Assembly (NCBI RefSeq): GCF_019175385.1
Contig: NC_083348.1
Location: 51,544,950 to 51,608,949 of the forward strand
Direction of reading: 5' to 3'
DNA from: Lycium barbarum
Lineage: Eukaryota; Streptophyta; Magnoliopsida; Solanales; Solanaceae
DNA: 64,000 nt
Shown: one piece after another, positions 4,150 through 57,933 of the stretch
How the letters are laid out: each line of letters starts with the position of its first letter
Numbering within the stretch: position 1 is the first letter of the stretch
Program-made: the position numbers and the translations under genes
The notes under the pieces: generated by a model
Seen by the model: the letters and a program-made list of their open reading frames with translations, nothing else
Database searches by the model: none
What the model was told of the DNA's origin: nothing

Positions 4150-5363
4150 GATGATTAGTAGTTCAAATGATTAGAATGAGTTACATTCTATGTTTTATAG
4201 GAACAAGGTTTATTGGGGGATTCGGGGGAAGTTAACGAATGAGTTCTATTGTGGCTTATATAAAGAGAAGGTTATTACGACTAACTCAAAGAAATGATTT
4301 ATATCCAGTCTACCAATACATGAGGAAGAGGAAAGGTAATAAGAATTAGAGTCTCTAAGGAAGGGAGCACGACAAGAAGCAACTAAGGAGTCAAAGAAGA
4401 ACATAGGCTAATTTAAGTCTCAAATGATCACCGGTACAAGAGAATCAATGACTTAAGAAGAAAGCACACTCATATTGAAAGGAAGTTATGATTAAGTAAG
4501 ATTTTATCTTACTACCATGTCTATGAGTTTCTATTGTAATTATGTAAAGATTTGAGGAGAGAAAATTGGAGGAAATTTTCAAATATGAATTTGATGATAT
4601 TTTGAGTTGTAAATTAGCTTGAGCTGTGATTATTAGTATGTTATGAGTATAATTTTGCTACGAGGGATAATAATGATGATGAGGAAGTATTATATACACG
4701 TATATGAGGGATTGTGTTGAGGTTGTTGTTGTGGATTGATTATGAAAGGATGTCCAGATGGACAATCTAAAGTAAAATAATCACTGAGAATAATAAGTCA
4801 TCAACTAGGAAATGCTATTGCAAATCATCTGGGCGCTACCATAGATGGAACTATGATGATATTGTAAGGAATTAAAGAGTCTAACCAAGGAATTAAAAGG
4901 AGATGATATGGTATGTATATAAGGTCGACTAGTACTAAAAGGGATGATCTAAAATAGTACCAGAGAAGCAAGCAAGGAAATGTGCTATATCTAAACAAGA
5001 GAATTTGTCTACTAGTAGGGAAATAAGGAACAAGGAAAAAGGGAACAATAATTAAGAGTGCTCATAGATTGGCTGGGAGCCGTATCAATCATGAGTTAGG
5101 ACCATCTTAATGGCAACAGGTCCCAGGAAGGTAACGAGATATCAGTTGACCACTAGGTACATACATAAAAACATGAGGATATGGAACTAATGCGTGAGTT
5201 CAAAAAAGAATTGGGAGAATATGAAAGAAGACTAATGAACCCCTAGTATAAGAGCATCGAGATCAAGAAACAAAGGAGGAAAACTATTTCAGCAAATTAA
5301 TGATAGCATCGTAAGCTCGCAAGCTACAACATTCTAGGACAAATGTTTCTAAGGGGGGAAGAA
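4150..5363 (+). mobile_element. 3' end of the internal region of gypsy element I, non-coding, with PPT
   Basis: Purine-rich, AT-rich sequence with no recognisable coding domain in any frame. It ends with a hairpin (AACATT 5328-5333 with AATGTT 5342-5347) and the tract AAGGGGGGAAGAA (5351-5363) right before an LTR. It resembles the non-coding internal tails of B and D in composition, so I read it as the 3' end of a non-autonomous or decayed gypsy element. Its 5' end is missing. Confidence 0.6.
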
Positions 5364-13009: not shown

Positions 13010-13115
13010 TATGAAATCATAACACACTATTAGGGAGGATAAAATCTTATACACGGATCTATCGCACGATTTCATAAGAAGAATGATGGTCAATTTTCCT
13101 AAAGGCCCTGTAGCC

Positions 13116-13156
13116 TCTTGTTTATTGATGTGGCGCGCAACACACCATAAACAAGA
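13116..13156 (-). other. Leader hairpin of element A with GCGCGC loop
   Basis: Outer stem TCTTGTTTAT 13116-13125 pairs perfectly with ATAAACAAGA 13147-13156. Inner stem TGTG 13129-13132 pairs with CACA 13141-13144. The eight-base loop includes the palindrome GCGCGC (13133-13138). It lies about 40 bases past the PBS. See the finding on dimerisation-site-like hairpins. Confidence 0.7.
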
Positions 13157-13198
13157 CTCTACTACACACAGCTCGTAGACACTTCCTAGGACTGAACC

Positions 13199-18378: not shown

Positions 18379-18390
18379 TGGTATCAGAGC
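18379..18390 (+). other. Primer binding site of element B (initiator tRNA-Met)
   Basis: TGGTATCAGAGC, four bases after the LTR end at 18374. It defines the 5' LTR boundary and the plus orientation. Confidence 0.93.
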
Positions 18391-18431
18391 GGTTTGTCCT
18401 CGGAATGTCTACAGGCCGTGTCTCGTAGAGT

Positions 18432-18471
18432 CTTGTTTATCGGTGTGTTGTGCACCACATCTATAAACAGG
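18432..18471 (+). other. Leader hairpin of element B with GTGCAC loop
   Basis: Outer stem CTTGTTTAT 18432-18440 pairs with ATAAACAGG 18463-18471 (one G-T pair). Inner stem TGTG 18444-18447 pairs with CACA 18456-18459. The loop TTGTGCAC holds the palindrome GTGCAC (18450-18455). Same position relative to the PBS as in A, C, D and E. Confidence 0.7.
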
Positions 18472-18474
18472 AGA

Positions 18475-20740
18475 CTACAGGACATTTAGGGTGTTACCTT
18501 TGTTTGATTCTTAGATCGTGTGATGGAGCCAGCTGTAGGAAATGAATTCCTTTCTTTCTAACCCTTAATTGCAGCTGGATAGCGGTATCGACGTAAGACA
18601 ACGACTGCTGATATTGGAAGCTACACAGTACTCAGGTAAGCAATGATATGAAAGACGTATGCTGGGTAAGGTATTTGAAGTACGATTAAAACATAAAGTC
18701 GGACATTGAAAAGAGAAATAAACGGGAAAGTGTAGCAGGTGCAGTTTGAATTGGGCATGTGAGGTAAGCCTCGACATCTGTATACTTCTATCTGTAATTG
18801 TTAGCCCCGTGTGGCTATGATGTGATATGATATGATATGTATATGTGTTGGCCCTGTGAGGCATGGTTGGTATTTCCTGTGTACAGGTTTTGGGATAGTA
18901 AGAAATACAGAGGAACCTCTGCCCAAATTTTTATAGAAATACGAAAAGGGAAATGAGATATAAATTCTTAACCTGTCTTGAAGGTCGATACCGAAATGAT
19001 AAATCTATTATGGTGGATTAAAAGTTTAAGAGGTACCCTCCATGTTATTTGTAAGAAGTAGTACCCTTATCGGGAAAAAATTCTATCTCGAGGAAGCATA
19101 TACGAGTAGCAAATTCGTAACTTATTTGGAGGGACCAGAAATAGGTTCCAACCCATTTTGTTTTAGCACAGCCCATGTGAAGGGCAAAAATGTCCGACGA
19201 CCAAGTTTCCTCTAATTGAAAGAATACAAAGCGTATGACAAGCAGTCGGGAACTGAGCGGTTCGCTCTCGACTCCAATATATGGATATATATATATATAA
19301 ACGTGGAGGTAATTATGTGAATTAAGTACTAAAAGATTCCGCGAGGTTCGTCGGACTCTAGCTTTCTTTTGCTGGTGGTCGGAAGATATCCTACAGTAAT
19401 ATTTTATTAACTTTTTCTCGACTAATTGGAGATGGAATTTGTGGAATATGAATTTAAACTCGTGGGCTGTCTGAAATTATATATATACGTATGAAGGTAA
19501 ATATTGAGGATTTACAAGGGGCGACACGGTAATCATAAAGTCAGAAAAGTAATAGAATTCTCGTTAGGCCGGGGTGGGACCCGCTACGAGGACGTTTTGA
19601 AAAGTTGTTAGGGCCCCGATTTGTCTTAAATTACGTGACAAAGGCTGTGTGGGGCAATCGGTGCAATTATACCGGCCTTAACGTGCCTAAATTCATTAAA
19701 GTTGTAAGGTTAAGCGTGCCAGGGCCAGAGCAATTCTGGGATGGGTGACCCCCTGGGAAATGTACAAAAATTTTCGCAAACTTAGATATGAGAGACGAAT
19801 AGGAAATTCTGGGTAACCAAAAGGGAATTAGGATGTGTGATATGGCTAGAAACTTTATAGGGGCCACACGAGCTGAGACGGGTTAGATTGCTAAAAAGGG
19901 AAGGAAAAGCAGCGCAACTCCGCAACTAGGGTAAGAATGAATAAGTGATTGAAGATGTATTGTAAAAGCAATGGTAGTGATATATATATGTATGTGTAGG
20001 GCCCCCATTTATGACCGTGTCGATTGAGTGGCGAACCCTGATAGCCATTGTTGTAATATATGGAAAACATTAACCGAACAGAATTTATGAGACAAAGCGA
20101 AAAGTATGGTACAGATGTTGCGAAATAGATTGATACTCATTTTGCTACCGGTTGAGGTTGGAAGATCCTAATACCACGATGTTTGGAAGGAAAAGAGAAT
20201 AATTGAATAGAAGGTAAGGAGATTAAAATGTCAAAAAAAAGGGGGGTGAACCGTAAGACACGTAATTAAGCAGAACCTCTAAACGAGTCAACGGGTAAAG
20301 CACGAGAATTATTTGCGAAAACGAACTAAAATGTAGTAGTGCAGGACAAAGGAAACCTATGGTATGGAATGATGAATCATGTGCATATCGAGTAATTTGA
20401 ATATTGAGAAAAACAGAACGACGGATAAGGATCGGGTATGAAAGAAGGAATAACTTGGCCAAATCATCCAATGAGGAGGAATATAATTATTAAGAGATAA
20501 ATTGCTATACTAATTACGTTACTTGAGTGTCAGCTATTGGATAAGATTATGTACTATGTAATTATGATTCTATTAAGGTTTCGTACGAAAATAATCAAGT
20601 TGTAGATTAGAAAGAAAAGACACGGATATGGTATAAGTATAACCCCAAAGGGGGGAAAGCGGATGAAAGTGAAGTAAAGTAAGTACAAATGGAAATAATT
20701 TACACACACAAGATCAAAGCGATAAAGAATTAGCCTAGGT
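18475..20740 (+). mobile_element. Non-coding module of element B replacing gag-pro-RT
   Basis: About 2.3 kb without coding potential. It aligns by eye, block by block, with the internal regions of E (about 28930-30420) and D (about 49440-51100), and from about 19490 with the post-gag region of C. Shared blocks are the 'GGCCCTGTGAGGCATGGTTG' leader stretch near 18850, a 'GTAAATATTGAGGATT' block near 19498, 'GGGTGGGACCCGCTAC' near 19572, a 5S-like segment at 19660-19770 and a 'GAGACGGGTTAGA' block near 19870. B lacks the gag start that A and C have here. Confidence 0.65.
19660..19770 (+). repeat. 5S rRNA-derived segment in element B
   Basis: Aligns with plant 5S rRNA from its 5' end (GGTGCAATTATACC, compare the canonical GGATGCGATCATACC) to near its 3' end. 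The regions matching the internal pol III promoter are best kept: GGTTAAGCGTGCC (A box) and GGGATGGGTGACC (C box). Most diverged toward the ends. No run of T terminates it, so an independent gene is unlikely. Confidence 0.75.
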
Positions 20741-28824: not shown

Positions 28825-28836
28825 TGGTATCAGAGC
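28825..28836 (+). other. Primer binding site of element E (initiator tRNA-Met)
   Basis: TGGTATCAGAGC, four bases after the LTR end at 28820. Confidence 0.94.
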
Positions 28837-28877
28837 GGTTAGTCCTCGGAATGTCTACAGGCCGTGTCTAGTAGAGT

Positions 28878-28917
28878 CTTGTTTATCGATGTGTTGTGCA
28901 CCACATCTATAAACAGG
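28878..28917 (+). other. Leader hairpin of element E with GTGCAC loop
   Basis: CTTGTTTAT 28878-28886 with ATAAACAGG 28909-28917; loop palindrome GTGCAC 28896-28901. Same layout as in B. Confidence 0.7.
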
Positions 28918-29736
28918 AAGCTACAGGGCATCTAGGATGTTACCCTTCTTTGAATCTTAGATCATGCGATAGAGCCAGCTGTAGGATATGAATTCCTTTC
29001 GGCTAACTTTTAATTTCAGCCAAAGGACGACATCGACAGAAGGCAATGGTTGATGATATTGGAGGCCGCACAGTACTCAGGTAAGCAATAATATGAAAGC
29101 TGTGTGTCGGAGAAGTTGTTTGATGTGTGGTAGAAATATAAAGTTGAAGATTGAACAGAAAAGTGAACAGGAAGGAGCCTCCGATGTTGTTCGAGTTGGG
29201 CATGTGAGGTAAGCCTCGACATCTGTATAATTTTATCTGTAATTGTTTGCCCCGTGTGGCTACGAGACGACATGATATGATGTATATATATATGCGTATA
29301 TGTGTTGGCCCTGTGAGGCATGGTTGGTATTTCTTGTGTACAGGTTTCGGATAGTAAGAAATACAGAGGAACCTCTGCCCAAATTTTTTTCCAGAGATAT
29401 GGAAGTAAATATATATAAAGTAAGTACAAACAGGTACCGCGATACTTGTCGGAATTTAGTTTTCTTCGGTCGGTGGTTGGAGAGCACCTTATGGTGATAT
29501 TTTATCAGATTTCACCGACTATTTGGAGACGGAATTCGTGGGACGAAAACTTAAATCTGTGGCCTGTCTGTAATTGTATGTATATGTGTATGAAAGTGAA
29601 TATCAGAGATTCAGAAAGGCAATATGGTAATTGTGCAACTTAGCCGGGGGTGGGACCCGCTACAAAAATTTTCCGAAAATTTGCTAAGACCCCGATTTGC
29701 CCTAAAATTATGTGACAAAGGTCCTGCAGGGCAATT

Positions 29737-29848
29737 GACGAAATTATATCAGCCCTAACGCGTCAAAATGCATGAAAGTTTCGGGGTTAAGCGTGCTCAA
29801 GCCAGAGCAATTCTGGGATGGGTGACCCCCCTGGGAAGTAATGCAAAA
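29737..29848 (+). repeat. 5S rRNA-derived segment in element E
   Basis: 5S-like segment with GGGTTAAGCGTGCTC and GGGATGGGTGACC intact and diverged ends (GACGAAATTATATCAGCC at the 5' side). It is flanked by the same module blocks as in B and D, including GGGGGTGGGACCCGCTAC upstream at about 29644. Confidence 0.75.
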
Positions 29849-30424
29849 TTTTGCACAAGTGTAAGTATGATAGATATAAATGAAAATTTGGGGTAATCTA
29901 AAGGAAAAGAGAATGTGTGGAGTAATTAGTGCCCTTACAGGAGTCGCGCAGAACGAGGCGGACTAAATGGGCAAAAAGAAAAGGTGCAACACCGCTCGGG
30001 AAATTGAGCGGATTTGAATAACAGTCAGAGACGTTCGCTAGTAAGATACTAGTAAATATATCTGTATGTGTGTGTGTATAATTTTTGTTTGGTGCCCATA
30101 TGGATCAAGAGCCGAGTCCCGGCAACTAATGTTGTGATAGACGAAAGGTTTTACTAAACCGAATACATGAAACGACGCGGAGACGGGGATTCGAATGTCA
30201 TCAAAGGATAGAAAAACCCCTATTCCATTATAACTCGGTCTGGTATGACGATGTCTGAAAAAGAAAATGAGTATGGATAGTAGGAAAGATGAAAGATAAG
30301 AAGTGTGAATAAGCGGAATCTTTGAAAAGGTCGATAAGCGACACGTAAGACGATTTGTATGATAACTTGGCGAACAAGTTTACAAATAAGGGAAATTTTC
30401 ATAAAACACTGGAGCCTTAATAGG

Positions 30425-30905
30425 AGTGATCTGATTCTAATTCAGATCCTATCTGTTATACTTCTGCACCCCCGATTCTGATAAGGCTCTGCCTATTACG
30501 CCTCTGTACTTCTGAACTCGATTATGTTGCCGTCTGATAAATCTTTGTACATCTAATTCTGAATACGTTTCTGTTTGACACACCCCTATACGATTGACTC
30601 TGATTACGAATCTGTCTGACACGCCTCTGTGTGTCTGATTCTGGATATGAATCTGTCTGATACATCTCTGTACGTCTGATTTTGATCACGCGTCTGTCTG
30701 ATACATCTCCGTATGTCTGATTCTGATTACGACTCTGTCTGATACATTTTTGTACGTCTGATTCTGATTTCGAATCTGGCTGATACCTCTTTGTACGTCT
30801 GACTCCGATCTCATGTTTGTCCGACATACTTCCGTACATCTGGCTTCGACTATGAATCTGTCTGATATGCTTTTGTGCGTCTGGCTCTAGTTATGAACCT
30901 GTTGG
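30425..30905 (+). repeat. TCTG-rich tandem array in element E internal region
   Basis: About eight imperfect units of roughly 58-60 bp, each with the words 'CTGTCTGATACATCT', 'GTACGTCTGATTCTGAT' and variants. It creates an open minus-strand frame (30522-30839) with periodic Arg/Tyr/Gln-rich repeats that I do not regard as a gene. Confidence 0.75.
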
Positions 30906-31053
30906 ATGTAACGTGAAATTATGATAACGTTGTAAGGAACCGAGAAGTGTGACAAGAGGTGAAAGATGTTGATAGCAATCGTAACGTTGAAAGGAATTTT
31001 GAAAGAAAGGAAGGAACCTCCCCAAAGTGTCACGAGGCCCCCTAAGGTCAATC

Positions 31054-31090
31054 GAACATTCGAGGACGAATGTTCTAAAGGGGGGGAGAA
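31054..31090 (+). other. Pre-PPT hairpin and polypurine tract of element E
   Basis: GAACATTCG 31054-31062 pairs perfectly with CGAATGTTC 31067-31075 around the loop AGGA, followed at once by AAAGGGGGGGAGAA (31077-31090) and the 3' LTR start at 31091. Confidence 0.85.
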
Positions 31091-34000
31091 TGTTATATCC
31101 TGCATTTTCGAACGTCGAATTATTTGTAAGCTGAGGTGGGGCCCACACATCAATATTTTTTTTTGGGACATGTGAAAAGTTATATGAATCGTATATGTAA
31201 AGTTAAACACAACCCGTGAAGGGCCCTGGGGCCAAATCAAAGTGGAAGCCCTCCAAACGAATATTTTTAAGAAAACGTTTTCGGATGACCTGACTTGGAG
31301 GGGCAAAAACGGCATTATAAGTTTAGAATTTGGGAAAATGCCCAGAGATAAAAGTTGTATATAATTGAAATAGCTTTCCAACGGTAGGTCGTGGGCTCCC
31401 AGGCGACGTCGGTACAAGGAGATATGGACATTTTAAGGCGGAAATGTCAAGCTGGGCAGTGAAATGGGCCCAACCCGATTCCAATCCGGGTCAAGCCCAT
31501 TTCTTATTATTTAAGGGAGTTTTCAGCCTCCTCCTCCACATTTCAGATCAGAAAAGATCCAGAAAATTCCATTAGAGAGAGAGAGAGAAAACTTCAAGGC
31601 TAAGAAGGTCATTTTGATCAAAATCCGAGCTCCGAATCCCGAAGCTCATGAAGAGAAAAACGTTGTACGTTGCGTTGCCTTCAATTTGAGATAAATATTG
31701 GTCTTGGGGGATGAAATTTTCGTGGTGGATCTTCTGATAAGGTATTTATAAAATTCCTTTTATGTTATTAAAGTGTTTATTTAGAGTTTTAACGAATTAG
31801 AACGGAGAAAACAGCATTATAAACTCGTTTGTTGTTTTGTTGAAATTTATGGGTGAGGGGCTGTTCTAATTGAAATTGATGGACTGATTTGAATTAATAT
31901 TTTGGTTGTTTTAATCATGGATTATGTGAGGAGAGTGAAGGAACTTAATGGTTATTAAGTTGTTGTAGGAAAACATACAACTTTGTTATGGTTTATGTAA
32001 AAATGGAAATGAAAGTATCAAGAGGAAAATTATGATTATTGTGGATGAATTTGGAAGATGGAAATGTATAATGAACTTGTATGTTGAAGGTTAGGAAAAA
32101 TTGGAAAAGTAGTGGCTTAATGGAAAGTTTGAATGTTTGCATACCTTATGAATATTGTGTGAAAATTGTATGGATGCTTCCGACGTATGTTGTAATGATT
32201 TTGATGGATGATGAATATGAGAATAATAAGTTTGGGTTGGAAATGTAAGGTTGAAACGCAAAATGTTTCGTTATGTCGAAAGGATGGCTAGTAATGCCAT
32301 ATCGTATGTTTAATGCATATTGTTGTTATTGATGCTATTTCTGGGTTGTTGTGATGATGAATTGAGCCGAGCTAAGTCTCGGGGATGTCTTATATACAGA
32401 GGAAATGCTGCCGAAATTTCGGTAGGCAAGTCAGTGTTAAGTTGGATTATTGAAAAATTTGAAACTAACAAATGGTAAACTTGACCATTTCTAGATTTTG
32501 GACGAAATTGAAGTCGATGCCAAGCGAGCGTAAGGCGCTAGCGAGGTATGTGAAGCATTTCCCTTTGTTCCTAGGCATGTTCTGGATGTGATAGGCTCGG
32601 CCGCGAGCCTTAAGTACGACTCCGTTCCCCGGAATTCGAGACGGAAAACCGCTCCAATTCCTTCAATTCAATTGAAGCTATTTTCTTACAAATTGCCTTT
32701 AAAGTGAGTTTTTGTACAAAATTTCCCTAAACGGAGTCGGAACACTTCCAAACGATTATGGATGACCTCATAAGGTCTATTAGCGATAATTTACATATGT
32801 TTCCTCGAGTTGGTCCGAGGCGGGCCCGCAAGGCCCGATATCTTCTGTAATACTTTAAATACTTCCGTTTTATCCGATTTTCTCAGAAACCATCTGAACT
32901 ATTATTTTGATTATGATACAACTATTTTTATGAAATTCTTATAAAATAACTTCTGAACATCTGAGAATCCGATTCTGATAATAATCTGTCGTGCCTTCCC
33001 AAGTAGGATATAGGCGTGTACTATGCATACTATCCGTATACTCTGATTTTGGATCGCCGTTTGGCACCCTTTAGTCTGATTGAGTTTGTATGTATGTGGT
33101 TTCCCATGGATCTGTTCGTGGTTGTCTCAATGCATTCCTTCACTGCGTCCCGGGCCAGGTTCTGTTATCGTGCATATTTCTCTGCATTGTTCACCGCGTC
33201 CCTCGGCGTACGGGCCGGGATCTGTATGTCTGTATGATACTATGATCTGTGTATGGGGATGGCGGCCAGGATGGCATATGATCTGATCTGATTCTGTCTG
33301 TCCACCGCGTCCCGTACTAAGAGGGCCGGGTTCTGTTTACCGCGCCCCCAGACAGGGCCGGGATCTGTATGTCTGTATGCATGTGCCATTAGTATGTATA
33401 TAAGCACATGCCTCTGTATGATTCTGTATGATTCTGCACTACTCTGCATGCATAATTCTGTCAGGTATACTTCTGTCTGTCCGTCTGAACTACGACTATG
33501 TCTGTATGTCCGTATGGATTCTGATTCTGTATGTCCGTATGGATTCCGATTCTGTATGTCCGTATGGATTCTGATTCTGTCTGTCTGGACCATGATTATG
33601 TCCGTCTGTCGGGACTTGACTCTGTCTGTCCGGCTTATGACCCAGTCTAGTATATTTATGCGCTTCCAGTCCAGATCATGATTATGTTTGATATATTTCT
33701 GCTTTACATACTCGGTACATTTTTGTACTGACCCCCGGTTCTTCGGGGGCTGCGTTACGTGCCCGCAGGTACAGGCGCACTCGGTGACACGCCGCCAGTC
33801 TAGGGCACAGGTTCTGCTATCTTGAAGAGCTCCTTTTGATTCGGAGCATGTACTTTGGTATATATATCTTTTGTTTTCCGTATGTTCTGTATGTATGGAA
33901 GTTCTGGGTACGGCGGGGCCCTGTCCCGTCATATGATTCTGTATGTCTGTAGAGGCCTGTAGATAGATGTGTGGGTTACGGGTTTCGTCTGTATGTTAGC

Positions 34001-35074: not shown

Positions 35075-35391
35075 CTGGGAGTAATATTATACCAACTTGG
35101 ATCGTTTCGCAACTAAAACCTTAACTCGATCATACTCAACACATATTAGACCTGATTCCAATTACGACTTACCTTTCGCACATAGATACCAACTGGAATC
35201 GTCTAGATACCAATTGGGCCCATCGAGATACCAATTTGATCGAAGTGGCACGATTTGAAAGAAAGAAGGGAAATTTTCCTAGATGCCCTATAGCCTCCCA
35301 TGGATGGGTACGGACGTCTACCATTCCACAGACTCTACTAGACATTGCTCTTGTACTTGTGACACTGGTAACCTAGGCTCTGATACCAACT
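35075..35391 (-). mobile_element. Leader fragment of gypsy element F with PBS
   Basis: Only the first ~0.3 kb of the internal region survives. The PBS (minus strand TGGTATCAGAGCC, 35388-35376) is three bases inside the LTR end at 35392. The leader contains a hairpin-capable block (TGGATGG 35301-35307 with CCATTCCA 35321-35328, one bulged base) around a loop containing the palindrome GACGTC (35313-35318). No gag follows. Confidence 0.7.
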
Positions 35392-38740: not shown

Positions 38741-39463
38741 ACATAGACCACACCTCATAATCTATATATAATATAAAGCTAGGCATAGACAAGGTATGTG
38801 ACACCTCTCTATGGCCACCATTCTTATTTATCTTTTTTATCCTGTTTTTTTATATATGTTTTCCTTCATTTGGCTACATAATTTATTAACTAATTAGATT
38901 AGCAAAAGCCTCATAAATTAAAATATCCCTTTACAATAGTTTAACCCACGTAGCAATAAAGCACAGATAGTCTTCTGCTTCAGCCCACGTTATAGTAATA
39001 TTAATTGACACATTAAATTTGTTTGCACTTGTCACGACCCAACTCCGTAGGCCGTGACTAGTGCCCGAGGTGGACACTCGTACATACTTATTAGCCAAAA
39101 TCTACTTGCGTTTAGCATATTAGGGACTTTCATTCATACAGGACAATATATCATTTAAATCGTCACTTATAATATCACTCATAAGCGGTCAGGCTATCGT
39201 AGTGTAGGGGAATGTCAAACACAAACCACATAAACATCACTGAACAAATACGACCCACGACCCACATACATGTCTACAGGCCTCTAAGAATAACAACATC
39301 ATATGGCGAGACAAGGCCCCGCCGTACCCCGAAATAGTCATATGTATATATATGTACAACAAAAGGATCTGTACCAAAAGTGTAAGCTCCGAAACAAAGG
39401 AGCACTTCAAGACAGCAGAGTGGATGTCCTATGCTGACGGGTCACCGCAACGAGCGTCTGTAC

Positions 39464-45907: not shown

Positions 45908-46025
45908 CACTGTAAGCATAGCAATCTGTTAGAAAAGGGACCATCCTAATAATACAGCTCTATCGCACGATCTAAGATCGAAGGAAGGGTGCATCCTAAA
46001 TGTCCTGTAGCTTCCTATTTATAGA

Positions 46026-46041
46026 TGTGGTGGACAACACA
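46026..46041 (-). other. Leader hairpin loop of element C, palindrome broken
   Basis: Same leader hairpin as A, B, D and E (outer stem words ATAAACAAGA near 46053-46062). The loop in minus sense reads TTGTCCAC, one substitution from the self-complementary GTGCAC of B and E. Confidence 0.6.
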
Positions 46042-46094
46042 CCGATAAACAAGACTCTACTAGACACGGCCTGTAGACATTCCGAGGACGAACC

Positions 46095-46106: not shown

Positions 46107-46110
46107 CTTT

Positions 46111-46499
46111 TGTCACGACCCAACCCCGTAGGCCGTGACTAGTGCCCGAGGTGGACACTCGTACATACTTATTAGCCAAAATCTACTTGCGTTTATCATA
46201 TTAGGGACTTTCATTCATACAAGACAATATATCATTTAAATCGTCACTTATAATATCACACATAAGCCGGTCAGGCTATCGTAGTGTAGGGGAATGTCAA
46301 ACACAAACCACATAAACATCACTGAACAAATCCGACCCACGACCCACACACATGTCTACAGGCCTCTAAGAATAACAACAACATCATATGGCGAGACAAG
46401 GCCCCGCCGTACCCCGAAATAGTCATATGTATATATATGTACAAAGGATCTGTACCAAAAGTGTAAGCTCCGAAACAAGGGAGCACTTCAAGACAGCAG
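46111..46499 (-). mobile_element. 5' LTR of element C, distal part
   Basis: Matches 39030-39418 of the 3' LTR. Broken at AGCAG (46495-46499) by element D; it resumes at 55399. Confidence 0.92.
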
Positions 46500-48394
46500 T
46501 GTTATAGCCCGTATTTTGTTCATTTGGATATTCCAAGATAATCATGGTAAGTTAAGGGCAAGATCATTTTCCAAAGTTATTTTAATGTACAAGTTGTTTA
46601 TTAGTATGGAAATATTGAGAAAGGATAAGGGTAAAAAGGGAAATTCACAAAGTGGTTCTTGGTAATATTGTGAAAGGCTAGGGGCAAAATGGGAATTTCA
46701 CAAAAACTCAAGAATGTTCTTGAAGGACCATGTGGCCATCCAAGTGGGGTGGGCTTTGGCCCACATGGATGAATTATGTATGTATATACATATGACTTAT
46801 TAGTCATATTCATCACCACCCTTACACTTAGAAAAATTCAAGAAGCTTGGAGAAGAAAAAAGAAAGAAAAAGAAGAAGGGGCCATTCGGCCATGGTTCAA
46901 AAATTTGGTCCATGGAAATTGATCAAGAAAAATTATTTTCTTCTAGTATTCCAACTAATTTGAAGGCCCTAATTAACGTGGGGTGGTTGTTGAAGCAAGC
47001 AAACCATTCATTTGTGCAAATTCCAACCCTAGCCGAGCAAGAGGATGGATGGAAGAAGGTAAGGTTTAATCTTCTTTTCATATGTTATGGATGATTTGTA
47101 TATGTTGTCGAGTGAAGAAATGAATGAAATTCATGAAAGTATGTGTGTGTAAGTTGTGGCCGAATATAGAGGGGGTATTGTGTAGATGTGATGAATTGAT
47201 TTTATTTAGTAATTTGATTGTTGTAGTTGTAGATTCCATGATGAAAATGAAGGTTTGATGAATTTAAATGAAGTTGGAATCATTGTGGGATTGTTGAAGA
47301 AGTTAATGTGACATTAGTATGGTTTCTTATATTTGTATGAATGATATTGCTAATGTGTAGGTTGTAAATATAATTCAAGAATTTGGAAGTGACACATGTG
47401 TTTGGAAGATGGTAAGTTGGGTTGTTGTGATTGAATTTGAAAGAAGGAAATGTGTTGTTATTGTTCTTGTTGAATTTGGAAGGTTTCGGGTGAAGTGGTA
47501 TGTTGGTTGGGTTGTTTGAACATTATGTGAATTGTTTGAAAGTTCTTGAACCATGTTAGAATGATTTCGGATTAACACTTGAATGTGAGATCATTGGTGT
47601 TAGCTTGACTATATTTGATCAAATTGAATATAAATGAAATGTCGTCGAATTGTGTAAAAAGGATTGCTAGTGTTAGAATGCACTTTGAATTGATTGTTGG
47701 AGTTGGAAATATGATTGTTGGTATTGTTGTTGATAATTTGGCCGAGTTGAATTCTCGGATTGTTGTTGATAAATTGGCCGAGTTAGATTCTCGAGGATGG
47801 TTGTATTTACAGGGGAGATGCTGCCGAAATTTCGGTAGATTATAAATGAATTTGTTTGAAAGACTAAGATAAGTATGTGATGATGAGTTTAATGATTGTG
47901 AAAATCTTCTTGAATGTAGATAGCGAGCTTGGAAAATTAGGCGTAGCTAATAAGACGTGAGACAGGTATGTGAGACTTACCCTTTCTTTCTTTTGGCATG
48001 ATCTTTGTGAAACAAACAGACAAAGCATATGTATGATTTCAAAGACACTCCTATTCTTAGAGCCACTAGGATGGCTAATGTTCTTGACTTCCTAAAACTG
48101 CTTTGCTATGTCTTGATATGTGTGTATGGTTCCGAAAGTTCTATTTTGATTTGATCCATAACGATATTCGAGAGGCATTTGATATGACTATTGTTTTGAT
48201 TTTCCAAAAAACAGCTTCTGAAATGTTCAAAGAGGTTTCTGTAGAAAAATGTTCCTAACTTTCGTATACTAACTCGGATTGACATGAAACGTGTTTTTGA
48301 ACCTCAAGTGTCGATCTATGTATTTATCCATCGAGTCTTCAAATTTGTTTTATATGCATATAGTTTCTCACGACTCTGCTCGTGCATGCCTTAA

Positions 48395-48745
48395 TATATC
48401 CTCCACTGTGTCCCGGGCCAGGGTATGTTCTCGTGCGTACTGCACTGCATTGTTCACCGCGTCCCTCTCACTTGCGGGCCGGGGCACGTTATGTATGATA
48501 TGATGACATGATGATATGATGACGGGGTGGTGGCCAGGATGGCATATGATGACTCTATTCACCGCGTCCCGCAATAGAGGGTCGGGGCACGTTACATGCA
48601 TACATGATACATGACATTGACATATATGATTTTATTCACCGCGTTCCTCAATAGAGGGTCGGGGCACGTTATATGCATACATGATATATGGTGATGACCT
48701 GCATGAATTTACTCACCGTATCCCTCACTAGAGGGCCGGGGCACG
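48395..48745 (+). repeat. Array of hairpin-bearing repeats in LTR D
   Basis: Five units share 'TTCACCGCGTCCCTCA' and 'GAGGGCCGGGGCACGTTA'. The core CCCTC-ACTA-GAGGG forms a perfect hairpin in the best unit (near 48722) and decayed versions elsewhere. The 3' LTR has the same array at about 54455-54805. Confidence 0.8.
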
Positions 48746-48893
48746 TTATATGATATATGGTTTATGATGATGACATACACAATTTTCATTTCAAAAGGCA
48801 AGTGCTTTGATGTTTTTAAAAAGTCATACTTGATTCTGGTAAATCTCTGTTTCTGTTATGATCCTGTTTTCTGTATTCCATGCCTTACATGCT

Positions 48894-48950
48894 CAGTATA
48901 TATTACGTACTGACCCCCTTTCTTCGGGGGCTGCGTTTCGTGTCGCGCAG
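48894..48950 (+). other. Triple hairpin of LTR D (5' copy)
   Basis: CAGTAT 48894-48899 with GTACTG 48907-48912 (one G-T pair; the 3' copy at 54951 has CAGTAC and pairs perfectly), CCCCC 48914-48918 with GGGGG 48926-48930, CTGCG 48931-48935 with CGCAG 48946-48950. The 3' copy is 54951-55007. Confidence 0.7.
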
Positions 48951-49339
48951 GTACACCCAGATGAATAGAAGCCATTATAGAGGATGTTCCAGCGGAGTTG
49001 GCAAGCTCCATTTGCCCCTGGAGTGTTGCCGGGTCAGAGTATTATGCTATGATGTCTTGTTCGGAGTTAGAGACTTTGCAGACAGAGTCGTGGGTATAGG
49101 ATGTCAGCTTTGTAAGTGGCTCCATCAGCCGATGTGTCATTATGTGCTATGATTACAGATCCTACTTGATTTGAGCACGATGAAAAGAAAGTTTCGGAAA
49201 GCTTTACTATGTATTTCATTCTTATTTGATTTAAGAGTCCAAAGAGATTATTTATGTAATAAGAGTCAGCGGGTTCGCTCGGCTCCGAATATGGGGTCGG
49301 GTGCCCATCACACCCCAGTAAGATTAGGGTGTGACAAAG

Positions 49340-49351
49340 TGGTATCAGAGC
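49340..49351 (+). other. Primer binding site of element D (initiator tRNA-Met)
   Basis: TGGTATCAGAGC, three bases after the LTR end at 49336. Confidence 0.94.
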
Positions 49352-49394
49352 AGGTTGTCCTAGGGGTTGTCTGCAAAGCCGTGTCCAGTAGAGT

Positions 49395-49434
49395 CCTGTT
49401 AATGGGTGTGAAGCCGGCCACATTTATAAACAGG
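49395..49434 (+). other. Leader hairpin of element D with GCCGGC loop
   Basis: Outer arms CCTGTTAAT and ATAAACAGG (49426-49434) pair with one mismatch. TGTG 49407-49410 pairs with CACA 49419-49422. The loop AAGCCGGC holds the palindrome GCCGGC (49413-49418). Confidence 0.7.
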
Positions 49435-50238
49435 AGGCTGCAGGGCATCTAGGGATTGTTGACCTTCTTTCTGTCATAGATCGTGCGATAGAGCCAAGTC
49501 ATAGGAAATGAGATTCCTTATATAAGCCTTACATACGACGGAAGAAGGTGAGTGGCGATGTGGAAAGTCACAGGGGTAAGTATTGATATTTTGTTCTTTT
49601 ACCTGAAATTGGAAGCTCTGGATGGCTGGAATGTGATATATAGCTGTATGCTCTGTGAGGCATTGTTGATATTTGCTGCGTACAGATTTTGAATAGTAAG
49701 AATTGTAAAGGAGACCCGGTCAGAATTTTTCAAAATCTGGTCATTTAACCAGGTATACCTAACAGGAAGAAGTGTGGAAAGGAAATATCGTAAACAGACA
49801 ATAAGTGCGATGCGTTGTCTTAGAGGATTTACGGACTTGGCATGACAGGAAGAATGATAGCAAGAAAGGCGATTAGCAGTCCAGAGGATTAAAATGGATA
49901 ACATCCGAGGTTTAGTAAGAGCAAGGTCTGTTGAAGGATTCAGAGAAAGTCGACAATCAGTTTTGCTATAGATTATTATACAAGAATGGTAAGTGGGAAT
50001 CCGAACAGACTGATACCCGAGTACTTACAAGTAATGGCGACGAAGGTATATTTGTTACCATCGGGAATCTGGGAATCTAGGATGAAAGGTAGTTATACAC
50101 GAAAGTGAAAGGTGAATATTGAGGATTAAAAAGGGTAAAATAGTAATTATAAAGGGAAAGACGTGTTACGAGAATGTCTCGGAATCTGTAAGACTTCGAC
50201 TTGCTCCAGATCATGTGATAAAGGTCATGCGAGGGAGT

Positions 50239-50354
50239 GGACGCGATTATATCATCATTAAGGCACCGGATTCCATCGAAGTTTCGAGGTTAAGCGTGCT
50301 AAGGTGGGAGAAATCTCAGGATGGGTGACCCCTTGGGAAGTGCGCAAGGAATCC
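50239..50354 (+). repeat. 5S rRNA-derived segment in element D
   Basis: 116 bp aligning nearly without gaps to plant 5S rRNA (about three quarters identical against the sequence I remember). GGACGCGATTATATCATC at the 5' side, GGCACCGGATTCCATCG near position 26, then GGTTAAGCGTGCT and AGGATGGGTGACC, which match the canonical A-box and C-box regions exactly, and TTGGGAAGTGCG near the 3' side. Confidence 0.82.
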
Positions 50355-51639
50355 TATAGATTTAGACATAAGAGACAAATGAGAAGCTAGACTAGCCTAG
50401 GGGAAACTAGGTTATATGGGATGGTTGGAGACCATAAGAGATCGCGTAGGACGAGGCAGACTAGACTGGTGAAGAGATAGAAAGTGCGTCCCAGCTCTGG
50501 AATTAGGATAGGCTTGAATAACATTTGGAAGTATTTTATGGGCAAGTTGGTAGTAAATATATATATATATATGAATGCGTATGATATCCCATATGTGATT
50601 GTATCGGCGGGCATGTGATGTGTACCCCAGCAACTGGCGCTACGGTATAGAAGGCATTACTCAAGTAAGGGTACCGAAGTTCAAGTGACAACAAGAACAA
50701 ACAGCACAAATGTTATAAGGTAAGCTGATGTGATTGTCTCTATTGGTTAAAATTGGAAAGTTCTAATAAATTGACACTTGGAAAAGAAAGAGAGTGAGTT
50801 AATGGAAGGCAAGGAGATCAAAAGGTCGGGAAAAGTGAAAAGTAAGAAAACTCAGTGAGGGAAGCCCCCGAGAGAAACTACCGACAAAGCACGAGACTAC
50901 TTGGGCAAAAATTCAAAGGTAGGTACGTGAAAAGGATAAAGTGTGGTAACATGGAACAAAAGAGGAGTGTGTGAGGTTCAAGAACTAATTTCAATAAGTG
51001 GGGCTAAAGGAATAGTGACTATGACAAGGGAAGTGAGGTAAGAGAAAGAATGTTTAGGGTTTGCGACGATGTTAAGAGGTTCCTAGCCTGTGAGAGGTAT
51101 ATAAAGAGATAAGCGTAGGATAAGATTAACACGGATGCCTCGGACATGGAAGAGCTTTCCAAAAGGATGACTCAAGAATAGAACGAATTTGCGCGTTTAA
51201 AGTAAAAATGCCACGAACTTCAGAGCCGATGCCACAAATAACAAGAGAAGAAAACTGCTCGAGGAGGATGAAAACCCAAGAAGGGTTAGGATGAGAGTAG
51301 GAAGGGTATATTAACGGGTTGGTCGAAGGAAGAGAAGAATATTTGGGAGTAAAACAATTGTAAATCTTTAACCATAAGAGTAAGAAGAATACTTTAACGA
51401 GGTAGCGGTAGGAACCCAATTACGCGTCAAGGAAAGAACAAGGATGATGAGTCGGCACTTCTGATTGGGAAGATATGGGAATATTGACAAGAATGATGAT
51501 ATAGGCGCAAAAAGGAAAGAAAAACTTATGGTAAGAAGTTTCGATACGTTATGCACAAAGTTGGAAAGAAAGATGAGGAGTAAGGTATAAACGAAGACTT
51601 CACAAAAGGACTGTTGGCATATAAGAAGCCCCTTAAAAA

Positions 51640-51653
51640 GGGGGGGGGGGGGA
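51640..51653 (+). repeat. Poly-G run in element D resembling an internal PPT
   Basis: TTAAAAAG followed by about 14 G and GAGAACATATT. This mimics the real PPT/LTR junction (AAAGGGGGGGAGAATGTTATA in E) but lies about 0.9 kb upstream of the 3' LTR. The matching run in C is at 42931-42948. Confidence 0.65.
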
Positions 51654-52471
51654 GAACATATTATATTAGGCTTCAAGTCCAAAGGAGGAAATTTATTAGC
51701 TCGGGGCCAGAGTTCAAAACATATCAGCATATCAGGAGAATACATGAAAGAAGTAGAAACGAATTGACAATGAGGGTACCATGGGGCCGACATGAAGGGA
51801 AAGGATGGAAGACACCTTAAGAGAATGCTTCATGCTAACATGAATTATGATATGTTTAGGACATGATTTGAGTCCCTCATATCAGGCAAATTTGCACCGT
51901 ATCTAAGCACGCAACGACATGTTGTAAAGAGTAATAAAAAGAGCAAGAAAGAGGCTACAAGCTAAGTGCACAAAGGATAAGGGAGAAAATGATAAGATCC
52001 AAAGGATATTTCGGACAACAACGGCTATTATAATAAAAGTATCAACAATTGGTAGTTTGGAAATTTTTGAATGAAAGAAAGAACGCAGCGCCTGTGAATG
52101 AAATAAAAGAGGTCACCGGATGCTAGAAAATAGTTCATGGACCATTAATTGTACGGAATATGAGAATATACGCTATGAAATTATATGAATCATCGACGTG
52201 AAGCGATGCTCGATCATATTTGTAAAGAATCCACACCGGAGAGTCAACAAAGAATAACGATGGACGAAACGAGCGCCAATACAAAGAAATCGAAGACAAG
52301 TATACTTGTGTCAAGAAATGACCTGGGAAGGACAAGGATAATAGGTTGCCGCAATGGATTAGAAAAACCCATGACACAGAATGAGGACTCATGTAAAGAT
52401 CGAGGAGTTCGATTATAAAGGAAATAGGGTAAAAGATATGGAATGGGCATGAAGAAAAGGACAACTATAAG

Positions 52472-52490
52472 AGCCCCCCCCCCCCCCCCC
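52472..52490 (+). repeat. Poly-C run in element D
   Basis: About 18 consecutive C in the place where E has CCTCCCCAAAGTGT and B has CTCCCCACCATGT, so it looks like an expanded CCCC. It may be an assembly or polymerase artefact in length. Confidence 0.75.
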
Positions 52491-52521
52491 CGAAGTGTTA
52501 TAAGACCCCATAAGATCAGTT

Positions 52522-52557
52522 GAACATTCGAGGAAGAATGTTCTAAAGGGGGGATGA
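52522..52557 (+). other. Pre-PPT hairpin and polypurine tract of element D
   Basis: GAACATTC 52522-52529 with GAATGTTC 52536-52543, then AAAGGGGGGATGA (52545-52557), then the 3' LTR at 52558. Confidence 0.83.
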
Positions 52558-55393
52558 TGTTATAGCCCGTATTTTGTACATTCGGATATTCCAAGATAAT
52601 CGTGGTAAGTTGAGGGCAAGACTATTTTCCAAAGTTATTTTAATGTACAAGTTGTTTATTAGTATGGAAATATTGAGAAAGGCTAAGGGTAAAAAAGGAA
52701 ATTCACAAAGTGGTTCATGGTAATATTGTGAAAGGCTAGGGGCAAAATGGAAATTTCACAAAAACTCAAGAAAGTTCTTGAAGGACCATGTGGCCGTCCA
52801 AGTGGGGTGGGCTTTGGCCCACATGGATGAATTATGTATGTATATACATATGACTTATTAGTCATATTCATCACCACCCTTACACTTAGAAAAATTCAAG
52901 AAGCTTGGAGAAGAAAAAAGAAAGAAAAAGAAGAAGGGGCCGTTCGGCCATGGTTCAAAAATTTGGTCCATGGAAATTGATCAAGAAAAATTATTTTCTT
53001 CTAGTATTCCAACTAATTTTAAGGCCCTAATTAACGTGGGGTGGTTATTGAAGCAAGCAAACCATTCATTTGTGCAAATTCCAACCCTAGCCGAGCAAGA
53101 GGATGGATGGAAGAAGGTAAGGTTTAATCTTCTTTTCATATGTTATGGATGATTTGTATATGTTGTAGAGTGAAGAAATGAATGAAATTCATGAAAGTAT
53201 GTGTGTGTAAGTTGTGGCCGAATATAGAGGGGGTATTGTGTTGATGTGATGAATTGATTTTATTTAGTAATTTGATTGTTGTAGTTGTAGATTCCATGAT
53301 GAAAATGAAGGTTTGATGAATTGAAATGAAGTTGGAATCATTGTGGGATTGTTGAAGAAGTTAATGTGACATTAGTATGGTTTCTTATATTTGTATGAAT
53401 GATATTGCTAATGTGTAGGTTGTAAATATAATTCATGAATTTGGAAGTGACACATGTGTTTGGAAGATGGTAAGTTGGGTTGTTGTGATTGAATTTGAAA
53501 GAAGGAAATGTGTTGTTATTGTTCTTGTTGAATTTGGAAGGTTTCAGGTGAAGTGGTATGTTGGTTGGGTTGTTTGAACATTATGTGAATTGTCTGAAAG
53601 TTCTTGAACCATGTTAGAATGATTTCAGATTAACACTTGAATGTGAGATCATTGGTGTTAGCTTGACTATATGTGATCAAATTGAATATAAATGAAATGC
53701 CGTCGAATTGTGTAGAAAGGATTGCTAGTGTTAGAATGCACTTTGAATTGATTGTTGGAGTTCGAAATATGATTGTTGGTATTGTTGTTGATAATTTGGC
53801 CGAGTTGAATTCTTGGATTGTTGTTGATAAATTGGCCGAGTTAGATTCTCGGGGATGGTTGTATTTACAGGGGAGATGCTGCCGAAATTTCGGCAGATTA
53901 TAAATGAATTTGTTTGAAAGACTAAGATAAGTATGTGATGATGAGTTTAATGATTGTGAAAATCTTCTTGAATGTAGATAGCGAGCTTGGACAATTAAGT
54001 GTAGCTAATAAGACGTGAGACAGGTATGTGAGGCTTACCCTTTCTTTCTTTTGGCATGATCTTTGTGAAACAAACAGACAAAACATATGTATGATTTCAA
54101 AGACACTCCTATTCTTAGAGCCACTAGGATGGCTAATGTTCTTGATTTCCGAAAACTGCTTTGCTATGTCTTGATATGTGTGTATGGTTCCGAAAGTTCT
54201 ATTTTGATTTGATCCATAACGATATTCGAGAGGCATTTGATATGACTATTGTTTTGATTTTCCAAAAACAGCTTCTGAAATGTTCAAAGACGTTTCTGTA
54301 GTAAAATATTCCTAACTTTCGTATACTAACTCGGATTGACATGAAACATGTTTATGAACCTCAAGTGTCGATCTATGTACTTATCCATCGAGTCTTGAAA
54401 TTTGTTTTATATGTATATAGTTTCTCACGACTCTGCTCGTGCATGCCTTAATATATCCTCCACTGCGTCCCGGGCCAGGGTATGTTCTCGTGCGTACTCC
54501 ACTGCATTGTTCATCGCGTCCCTCTCACTTGCGGGCCGGGGCACGTTATGTATGATATGATGACATGATGATATGATGACGGGGTGGTGGCCAGGATGGC
54601 ATATGATGACTCTATTCACCGCGTCCCGCAATAGAGGGCCGGGGCACGTTACATGCATACATGATACATGACATTGACATAGATGATTTTATTCACCGCG
54701 TCCCTCAATAGAGGGTCGGGGCACGTTATATGCATACATGATATATGGTGATGACGTGCATGAATTTACTCACCGCGTCCCTCACTAGAGGGTCGGGGCA
54801 CGTTATATGATATATGGTTTATGATGATGACATACATGATTTTCATTTCAAAAGGCAAGTGCTTTGATGTTTTTAAAAAGTCATACTTGATTCTGGTAAA
54901 TCTCTGTTTCTGTTATGATCCTCTTTTCTGTATTCCATGCCTTACATGCTCAGTACATATTACGTACTGACCCCCTTTCTTCGGGGGCTGCGTTTCATGC
55001 CGCGCAGGTACACCCAGATGAATAGAAGCCATTATAGAGGATGTTCCAGCGGAGTTGGCAAGCTCCATTTGCCCCTGGAGTGTTGCCGAGTCAGAGTATT
55101 ATGCTATGATGTCTTGTTCGGAGTTAGAGACTTTGCAGACAGAGTCGTGGGTATAGGATGTCAGCTTTGTAAGTGGCTCCATCAGCCGATGTGTCATTAT
55201 GTGCTATGATTACAGATCCTACTTGATTTGAGCACGATGAAAAGAAAGTTTCTGAAAGCTTTACTATGTATTTCATTCTTATTTGATTTAAGAGTCCAAA
55301 GAGATTATGTATGTAATAAGAGTCAGCGGGTTCGCTCGGCTCCGAATATGGGGTCGGGTGCCCATCACACCCTAGTAATATTAGGGTGTGACA
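52558..55393 (+). mobile_element. 3' LTR of element D
   Basis: Homologous to 46500-49336. Palindrome CCGAAATTTCGG at 53882-53893, doubled 36-bp unit near 53783-53854, hairpin array 54455-54805 and hairpin run 54951-55007. Ends TTAGGGTGTGACA before TGCAG. Confidence 0.94.
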
Positions 55394-55398
55394 TGCAG

Positions 55399-57933
55399 AG
55401 TGGATGTCCTATGCTGACGGGTCACCGCAACGAGCGTCTGTACCTGCGGGTATGAAACGCAGCCCCCGAAGAAAGGGGGTCAGTACGGAATATGTACTGA
55501 GCTTGTAAGGCAGTAAATGCAATTGAAAAGATCATAACTGAAATAGAGATTCCAGGAGACAAGTATGATAATAAAGAAACCACTTTACCTGTGCAGTACG
55601 AAACAGAATCAAGCATACCAATACCACATACCGTACCTGGCCCATTATGGGACTCGGTGAATAAAATCATGTCATCACGTCATCATGAATATATGTATAC
55701 GTATACCGTATTCGGCCCTCTAGTGAGGGACTCGGTGAATAAAGTCATGTCATCATGTCAGCATGCTATCATATCATCATGCACATACATATATACATAC
55801 CGTACCCGGCCCTCTAGTGAGGGACTCGGTGAATAAAATCATCATATGCCCTCCTGGCCGCCATAACACATCGTCATCTCATCATGTCATCATATACATA
55901 TACCGTACCCGGCCTTCTAATGAGGGACTCGGGGAACAATGCAGTGGGGTGCGCACGATAACATACCCGGCCCGGGACTCAGTGAAAGATGTATTGAGGC
56001 ATGCACGAGCAAAGTAGTGAGAAACCATATGCATATAAATAAATTTTCTTTCAAGACTCAAAAGATAAGTACACAAACCGACACTTGAGGATCGTAAACA
56101 CGTTTCAAGTCAATCCGGTTTAGTATGAGAAAGTTATGGACACTTTTACCACAGAACCTCTACGAACGTTTCCAAAGCAATCCAAGACTGTATACAAAAG
56201 TTAGAGACATTAATACTTACAGAACCCTTTTAGGGACATGAACTCTTTATACTTTACTCGTTATTCAACCATACAATAAGCTCAACTATATCGAGCGTAC
56301 TCATGTCAAGAAGTGAATAAGAATCATAGACAAACTCGGAAACATATCAAATAGAGCTTCAGAAATCATAGATACGTATCAAAACCATATGAAGTAGCTT
56401 ATGGAAATCAAGAATATTAGTCATCCTAGTGGCTCTAAGAATAGGAGTTTCTTTGAAATCATACATATACTTGGTCTGTTCGTTTCACAAGGATCATGCC
56501 AAAAGAAAGAAAGGGTAAGCCTTACATACCTTGCCCGCTTCCTACGCTAATCCAACTTAAGTCTCGACTTTCGCAAGATCTACAACAATATTAGTAGATA
56601 CCAAACATTAGCTACGGATACTTAAGAGTTCAATTCTAAACTAACACCTCATCTACAGAAATTTCGGCAGCATTTCCCCTATAATTACAACCAACCCCGA
56701 GAATTCAACTCGGCCAAATCATCAATAACAATCCCAACAATCATGCCAACAACATCAATAATCAATTCAAAACGCATTCTAACGTTAGTAACTCTTTTCT
56801 ACATAATTCGACAACATCCCATTTATATTCAAATCGACCATATATAGTCAAGCTAACACCAATGATCTCGCATTCAAGTGTTAATCCGAAATCATTCTAA
56901 CATGATTCAGGAACACTTCAAACAATTCACACAATATTCAAAACAATCTAACCAATATGCCACTCCACCCGAAACCTCCAAAATGCAACAATAAAAATAA
57001 CCACACATTTCCTTCTTTCAAATTCATGAACTACACCCATAATTCACACACTAACAACATTATTTTCCATAAATACAAGAGACTACATTCAATCCACATT
57101 GGCTTCTAAAACAGCCCACAACAATTTCGACCTCAACTTGAATCATTAAACTCTCATTTTCATCATAGAATCCATTACAACAACAACCAAAGTACTAAGT
57201 AAAAATTGGTTCATCACTCCTACACAACACAACACATACACGGCCAACACCAACACATAGGGTTTCATGGTTTACATCCATTTCCACACACTACAACATG
57301 TACAAAACATTCATAACATATGAAAAAGAGGATTAAACCTTACCTTTCTTCACTACACTCGTCAACTTGGCTAGGGTGGTAATAGTGCACAAATAAGTGT
57401 TTTGCTTGCTCCAACAACTACTCCACGTTAAAGAGGGTCTTCCAATTGGTTGAATTGCTAGAAGAAAATATTTTTTTGACCAAGATTTGAGGGCTTCAAT
57501 TTTTGCTTGCTATGGCCGAATGGCCTTCTCTTTATTTCTTCAAGTTTCTTGAATTTTCTCAAGTGTGGAAGATGATAAATGTGCTCTATTAGTCATCTTT
57601 TATCTATTTATATTAAGCTCCCATGTGGGCCTTGGCCCACATCACTTGGACGGCCACATGGCCTTTTATTTTCAAGACCATTTTTTTTTTTTTTGTATTT
57701 TGTAATTCATGAAAAATTATTTTCCTAATTTCAAATTTGCCCTTAGCCTTCCTCAATATTACCATGAACCACCTTGTGAATTTCCCTTTTTACCCCTATC
57801 CTTTCTTAATATTTCCACATCAATAATTTTCACAAACAACTTGTGTGTTAAACTAGATCAAAAATATAGCCTTGCCCTTAACTTCTTACAATTATCTTGA
57901 AATATCTGAATGTACAAAATACGGGATATAACA
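55399..57933 (-). mobile_element. 5' LTR of element C, proximal part
   Basis: Continues 46499 after removing D; it matches 39419-41944. Plus strand closes ...GGGATATAACA, then the GCACT duplication of the Helitron. Contains hairpin run 55444-55499 and array about 55625-55990. Confidence 0.92.

Follow-up and report, generated by a model that had tools for sequence, protein, structure and literature searches.

Leader hairpins with family-specific palindromic loops suggest a kissing-loop dimerisation site in Ty3/gypsy-type retrotransposons of Lycium barbarum

To our knowledge, the choice and pairing of genomic RNA in plant LTR elements have been little studied. Palindromic loop sites are known elsewhere as the places where genomic RNA dimerisation and packaging start. 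In HIV-1, the SL1/DIS hairpin presents a palindromic hexamer in a nine-nucleotide loop of 2+6+1 layout, which reads GCGCGC or GUGCAC according to subtype, palindromy being kept. For Ty3, a short hairpin carries the palindrome PAL6 (CUGCAG) in its apical portion; a kissing-loop dimer was proposed for it, and its deletion abolished dimerisation in vitro (PMC11381356). For Ty1, 5' hairpin loops (SL1a-SL3a) have been proposed to join two RNAs, these being two different complementary loops rather than one palindrome (PMC5454406). Among plant elements, the dimerisation and packaging signals of the Copia elements BARE1/BARE2 are said to be conserved in a non-autonomous partner (PMC3735527), so that the remark in a preliminary description of the present DNA, that no such signal had been described in plant elements, fails for Copia. 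A search of titles and abstracts, covering mostly journals other than subscription ones, found no description of a dimer site in plant Ty3/gypsy elements, and the main text of a review of host factors of plant LTR elements has no word starting with "dimer" (PMC12786077).

We describe here a candidate site of this kind in the leaders of Lycium barbarum LTR elements. As in HIV-1 SL1/DIS, its palindrome changes while palindromy is kept, and one family (G, below) has the same 2+6+1 layout; most of the Lycium loops, however, are 2+6 or 1+6, with no free 3' loop nucleotide. With Ty3 it shares the Ty3/gypsy-type element and a six-nucleotide palindrome near the 5' end of the RNA, apical in a hairpin; PAL6, however, is located at nt 391-396 within the GAG ORF, for which three palindromes are listed (PMC11381356), whereas the Lycium site is carried by a long jointed stem some 60 nt 3' of the PBS and varies by family within one genome. 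The BARE elements are likewise plant LTR elements, but of the Copia type, and the loop sequence is not given in the part of the source cited (PMC3735527). The principle is already known; what appears to be new is one scaffold with many palindromes and paired turnover in one genome.

The starting material was a stretch of 64,000 nt (the window) of the 1.67 Gb L. barbarum genome. Leaders were then sampled across that genome, and all sequences are from it alone. Six leaders (A to F) were identified in the window, each starting at a perfect PBS, TGGTATCAGAGC, which we take to be the complement of the initiator-Met tRNA. All six contain a stable hairpin in the 5' leader close to the PBS, about 27-95 nt 3' of it, with the loop palindrome about 60 nt after the PBS (Table 1). 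In the hairpin of leader B, read from the base upwards, a GTGTC/GACAT stem and then a GTAG/CTAC stem are followed by a two-by-two internal loop and a middle stem of ten pairs (TCTTGTTTAT/ATAAACAGGA); above a mismatch come the six pairs of the apical stem, closed by the 8-nt loop.

Folding recovered a common upper hairpin in A-E (8-nt loop, six-pair apical stem, internal loop or bulge, long middle stem), as the preliminary description had claimed. The positions it gave for the hexamers of A, B, D, E and F are exact, and it had correctly placed the loop of C one substitution off a palindrome. The hairpin that it located at 18432-18471 is real but represents only the upper part of the whole: in B-E the structure is extended below by the four-pair GTAG stem and by the GTGTC/GACAT base stem of about six pairs, a lower part that folds less well in A. 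The palindrome does vary by family, as was stated; B, C and E, however, form one related group, which leaves four loop types rather than five independent ones.

Table 1. Primer-binding sites and leader hairpins of the six elements (coordinates are those of the window)
Leader	Feature	Position	Strand	Details
A	PBS start	13199	-	TGGTATCAGAGC
A	Hairpin	13103..13169	-	Lower part weak; palindrome GCGCGC 13133-13138
B	PBS	18379..18390	+	TGGTATCAGAGC
B	Whole hairpin	18418..18485 (about)	+	Base, GTAG, middle and apical stems with 8-nt loop; from sequence and folds
B	Apical loop	18448..18455	+	TT+GTGCAC; palindrome 18450-18455
C	PBS start	46095	-	TGGTATCAGAGC
C	Hairpin	46000..46067	-	B/E group; loop hexamer GTCCAC 46030-46035, one substitution off palindrome
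D	PBS start	49340	+	TGGTATCAGAGC
D	Hairpin	49381..49448	+	Palindrome GCCGGC 49413-49418
E	PBS start	28825	+	TGGTATCAGAGC
E	Hairpin	28864..28931	+	Palindrome GTGCAC 28896-28901
F	PBS start	35377	-	TGGTATCAGAGC
F	Hairpin	35283..35345	-	Copy with short deletion at apical stem/loop; GACGTC 35313-35318

The constancy of the loop within families was assessed by genome-wide searches, which scored the best 40 of hundreds to thousands of candidates and thus represent the near kin of each query rather than whole families. GTGCAC was present in all 27 scored copies of the B family (one of them the window's own, and L137, which does not match the B regular expression, being left out), and GCCGGC in 12/12 fetched copies of the D family. 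In the A family, 17 of the 20 fetched copies carry GCGCGC, and the remaining three differ from it by CpG transitions. The G family, absent from the window and first met in a random stretch, has TGATCA in 20/20 copies, with the 2+6+1 layout in most of them.

For the F family the loop was predicted before the copies were fetched: the only relative available at that stage had an apical stem longer than that of the window copy, and we therefore expected an eight-base loop whose 3' side is formed by GACGTC. Twenty relatives were fetched, and the prediction held in 13 of the 19 scored, with GACGTC at the exact B/D offset; five of the other six are one step from GACGTC, as is L213, which reads GACATC and was left out of the count on account of a changed anchor. 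The preliminary description had placed the F palindrome in the loop of a different stem. That arrangement is ruled out: the relatives share the usual apical stem, GACGTC fills positions 3-8 of their 8-nt loop, and the existence of such intact copies indicates that the window copy carries a short deletion.

When the B, D, F and G families were compared, the loop was the sole place with a palindromic majority hexamer in all four. Its offset from a shared anchor is the same in B, D and F, and in G it is three bases less from that family's own anchor. A separate hexamer, CCTAGG, is the majority one in D, F and G near the PBS, upstream of the hairpin, with identical letters in each.

To sample leaders without choosing their loops, we used a stem scan blind to the loop letters, with a loop size of 7-9, a position 45-80 nt after the PBS and no bulges allowed; a score of at least 10 defined a strong hairpin. 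The loop sizes and position range were fixed after the first 60 sites had been inspected, and only the last 20 sites were untouched. The sequence TTGGTATCAGAGC occurs at 5319 + 5672 places in the genome (9 + 2 for the reversed control), and the first sample comprised 80 (60+20) of the first 83 such places listed on contig C1, three clustered places at 5.93 Mb being skipped. The second consisted of 13 leaders drawn from twenty 10-kb stretches placed at round coordinates; it was based on 13 sites whose PBS had no more than one mismatch, from which L164 (+ strand) and L166 (at 1294) were removed as not LTR-like and to which L159 and L169, with two PBS mismatches each, were added.

Pooled without the window, these 93 leaders gave 41 strong hairpins, and the loop contained a palindromic hexamer in 34 of the 41. 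The hexamer flush with the 3' arm was palindromic in 29/41, compared with 53/4013 at offsets more than three bases away; 19 of these 53 distant palindromes fall at three recurring offsets (+11, 9/41; +25, 6/41; -53, 4/41), and these recurring palindromes, like CCTAGG, lie in stems or upstream. Among the first 60 C1 sites, 23 of the 27 strong stems carried palindromic loops, as opposed to 3/33 sites with weak stems, and shuffling the loop letters of these sites gave a mean of 3.0/27 and a maximum of 8 in 2000 draws. Shuffling the whole leaders 30 times, with single-base composition only being kept, produced 25 strong stems in 1800, one of them with a palindromic loop. In the last 20 sites, the unchanged scan found palindromes in 5/6 at a score of at least 8 (shuffle mean 0.4, maximum 3) and in 3/4 at a score of at least 10, where shuffles can reach 4, so that this batch is weak taken alone. 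The random stretches yielded 8/10 for strong and 1/3 for weak hairpins, and the window leaders 3/4 and 2/2, respectively, the bulge in A lowering its score. The first of the two refuting conditions named in the preliminary description was thereby examined within this genome, where palindromic hexamers occupy the apical loop far more often than expected by chance.

The 34 palindromic loops comprise GGGCCC (10), GTGCAC (6), GCGCGC, GACGTC and GAGCTC (5 each), GGCGCC (2) and TGCGCA (1), the last (L168) being probably a decayed GCGCGC that is palindromic by accident. The sampled sites added GGCGCC, GGGCCC and GAGCTC to the list, and GCCGGC and TGATCA derive from the D and G families, for a total of eight palindromes (GTGCAC, GCGCGC, GCCGGC, GGCGCC, GGGCCC, GACGTC, GAGCTC and TGATCA). 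Seven strong hairpins lack a palindromic hexamer. In six of these, one or two changes would restore palindromy; the last, L307, has a poly-A loop and probably does not belong to a leader. Most of the exceptions look like decay of old copies. In 33 of the 60 TTGGTATCAGAGC sites the score was below 10. Some low scorers (L253, L255 and L282) are hairpin leaders by eye, missed because the scan allows no bulges, but many others show no hairpin, and the structure is consequently no rule for all elements with this PBS. Outside this genome, a scan of IMG/VR with AGTGGTATCAGAGC gave at least 120 stretches, and scans of viral_contigs and genome_contigs (PBS + TAGAGTC) gave 2 and 6 matches; by eye, those listed resembled chance matches.

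The stem also changes with its pairing retained. Across 17 hand-picked representatives, 101 of 102 apical-stem pairs are kept while the letters change: pair 2 is T-A in 11, C-G in 4 and A-T in 2, and pair 3 is G-C in 9, A-T in 6 and C-G in 2, with pair 1 nearly constant (G-C 16, G-T 1). As RNA duplexes the eight palindromes are strong, a mean energy as low being reached by 6 of 20000 random sets of eight drawn from the 64; TGATCA of the G family, at rank 37 of 64, forms a weak duplex.

The loop sequence changes with self-complementarity kept not only among the eight palindromes but also within a single family, J, in which three palindromes occur on almost identical flanks. The 14 sampled J copies (holdL316, which does not match the J regular expression, being left out) read GGGCCC in 10, GCGCGC in one, GGCGCC in one and an off-palindrome hexamer in two. 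With gap columns left out, as in all identities given here, L278 and L289 are equal at 120/122 bases outside the loop and differ at 3/7 inside it (A-GGGCCC versus T-GGCGCC), and L268, with the loop T-GCGCGC, equals L278 at 118/122. L285, on the other hand, has the same loop as L278 and yet matches it at only 113/122, which indicates that loop and flanks change out of step. The J loops are subfamily states and not single mutations. Among 40 scored matches of L289, 36 others have 99% identity over 160-161 bases, and of seven other loci that were cut out, five read GGCGCC, one was a letter off and one was unreadable. GCGCGC on a perfect J stem occurs at 103 + 109 places in the genome (0 for the reversed pattern), and all seven 98% matches of L268 on C1-C5 overlap such places.

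With the loop masked, a tree built from 45 leaders required at least 11 changes among palindromes, a rough figure in that support is weak for 23 of 42 inner branches, the state of L168 is probably decay, leaders without a palindrome were not counted and nine hits were removed by hand as non-leaders. This tree and the J-family switches, taken together, bear on the second point raised in the preliminary description, and indicate that the palindrome changed repeatedly and does not merely descend from a few old founders. A vote by single-linkage clusters (palindromic in 22/27 at 90% identity, 9/14 at 85%, 1/3 at 80%, and one cluster at 75%) was dropped as support, its outcome being dependent on the identity cut-off.

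The coding content of the window elements was examined with Pfam. Element A encodes gag, a zinc knuckle, RVP_2, RVT_1, RNaseH and H2C2, that is, the gag, protease, RT-RNaseH and integrase of the Ty3 type, which together with a PBS after the LTR identify it as a Ty3/gypsy element. Element C matched gag, a zinc knuckle and SH3_Tf2-1 only, and B retains only coding remnants, with RNaseH scoring above its cut-off and rve below its own. No Pfam match was found in the two internal frames tested in each of D and E, nor in three nearby frames of F. The internal regions of D (about 3 kb; window 49340-52300) and E (at most about 2.3 kb; 28825-31100) are short, as judged from repeats, and both elements look non-autonomous from their sequence; they nevertheless retain the PBS and the hairpin, and the D leader has at least 40 scored matches in the genome at 98% or more. 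D itself is apparently inserted in the 5' LTR of C, where repeats at 39029/46110 and 39415/55395 flank it (window 46110-55700). In the GGCGCC subfamily of J, the longest stop-free stretches of copies L329, L330 and L333 measure 72-105 residues over the 1.66 kb that follow the PBS, and this subfamily is possibly non-autonomous or has a long leader.

We consider the hairpin to be, with a probability of roughly 0.8, a cis-acting kissing-loop dimer-initiation site of the RNA of Ty3/gypsy-type LTR retrotransposons. In the proposed mechanism, the long jointed stem would present a loop of 7-9 nt with its six palindromic letters available for pairing, the hexamer would pair with the same hexamer of a second RNA copy, and the contact would join two genomic RNAs for packaging and reverse transcription. 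Self-complementarity is kept while the letters and the apical pairs change, and a second copy of the loop hexamer was found in 0/34 leaders within the 130-nt leader; together these observations argue for a contact between the identical loops of two RNA molecules. The pairing of two RNAs at the hairpin, and its tie to packaging, are what we infer from this pattern.

Other explanations for the pattern were weighed against this reading. The loops might be a few old founders spread by recombination or template switching within conserved stems, their palindromy being ancestral rather than selected. The recurrence of the same palindromes in separate branches of a tree with 23/42 weakly supported inner branches, the merging of single-linkage clusters at 80% identity and the divergence of some same-loop J copies (L285/L278) beyond that of different-loop copies are all in keeping with such a history. 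Eight founders, however, would all have to be palindromic by chance, and unconstrained copies decay (6/19 in F), yet high-copy subfamilies keep the palindrome. Spread of founders is a possible contributor that leaves the palindromy of the high-copy loops read unexplained, and as the whole account we regard it as unlikely. Slightly less credible is a packaging or translation element bound by Gag or another protein, with the palindrome as a side effect of loop recognition: the jointed stem is conserved, and the hairpin persists in elements whose tested frames look non-coding, but protein recognition does not predict self-complementarity that is kept through eight sequences.

Mutation bias could imitate some of the changes, given that GCGCGC contains two CpGs and that loss of methyl-cytosine on opposite strands would turn it into GTGCAC. 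Such decay is visible in the three off-palindrome A copies, all of them CpG transitions, and in the GACATC of four of the 20 fetched F copies. It is largely refuted as an explanation by the paired transversions (GCGCGC/GCCGGC, GACGTC/GAGCTC and GGGCCC/GGCGCC/GCGCGC), inasmuch as CpG decay cannot turn GCGCGC into GCCGGC, GGCGCC or GGGCCC; moreover, it yields non-palindromes as readily as palindromes, and GTGCAC is uniform among the scored B copies. We judge it very improbable. The lowest likelihood is assigned to a palindrome that acts as DNA, for example in chromatin or as the binding site of a dimeric protein. Hexamer palindromes are typical of DNA-protein sites, and the dyad-symmetry repeats of Sireviruses have been likened to transcriptional activators (PMC2829016). 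A protein site, however, tends to keep its letters, whereas here the letters change and the symmetry stays, and the hexamer sits in a hairpin loop, above an apical stem in which whole base pairs are exchanged.

Under the kissing-loop reading, a single genome in which one scaffold carries eight natural palindromes would offer a natural experiment on homotypic versus heterotypic pairing, and the loop sequence may indicate which autonomous elements a given non-autonomous element could pair with. A further and rather doubtful proposal is that the loop is a self-recognition code, in which families and even near-identical subfamilies diversify their palindrome so that an RNA pairs with its own kind. 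If this were true, the paired changes would outrun those of the flanks, and the RNAs would escape co-packaging with rivals or non-autonomous passengers. More generally, the comparative evidence would extend the principle of the retroviral dimer site to the Ty3/gypsy elements of plants.
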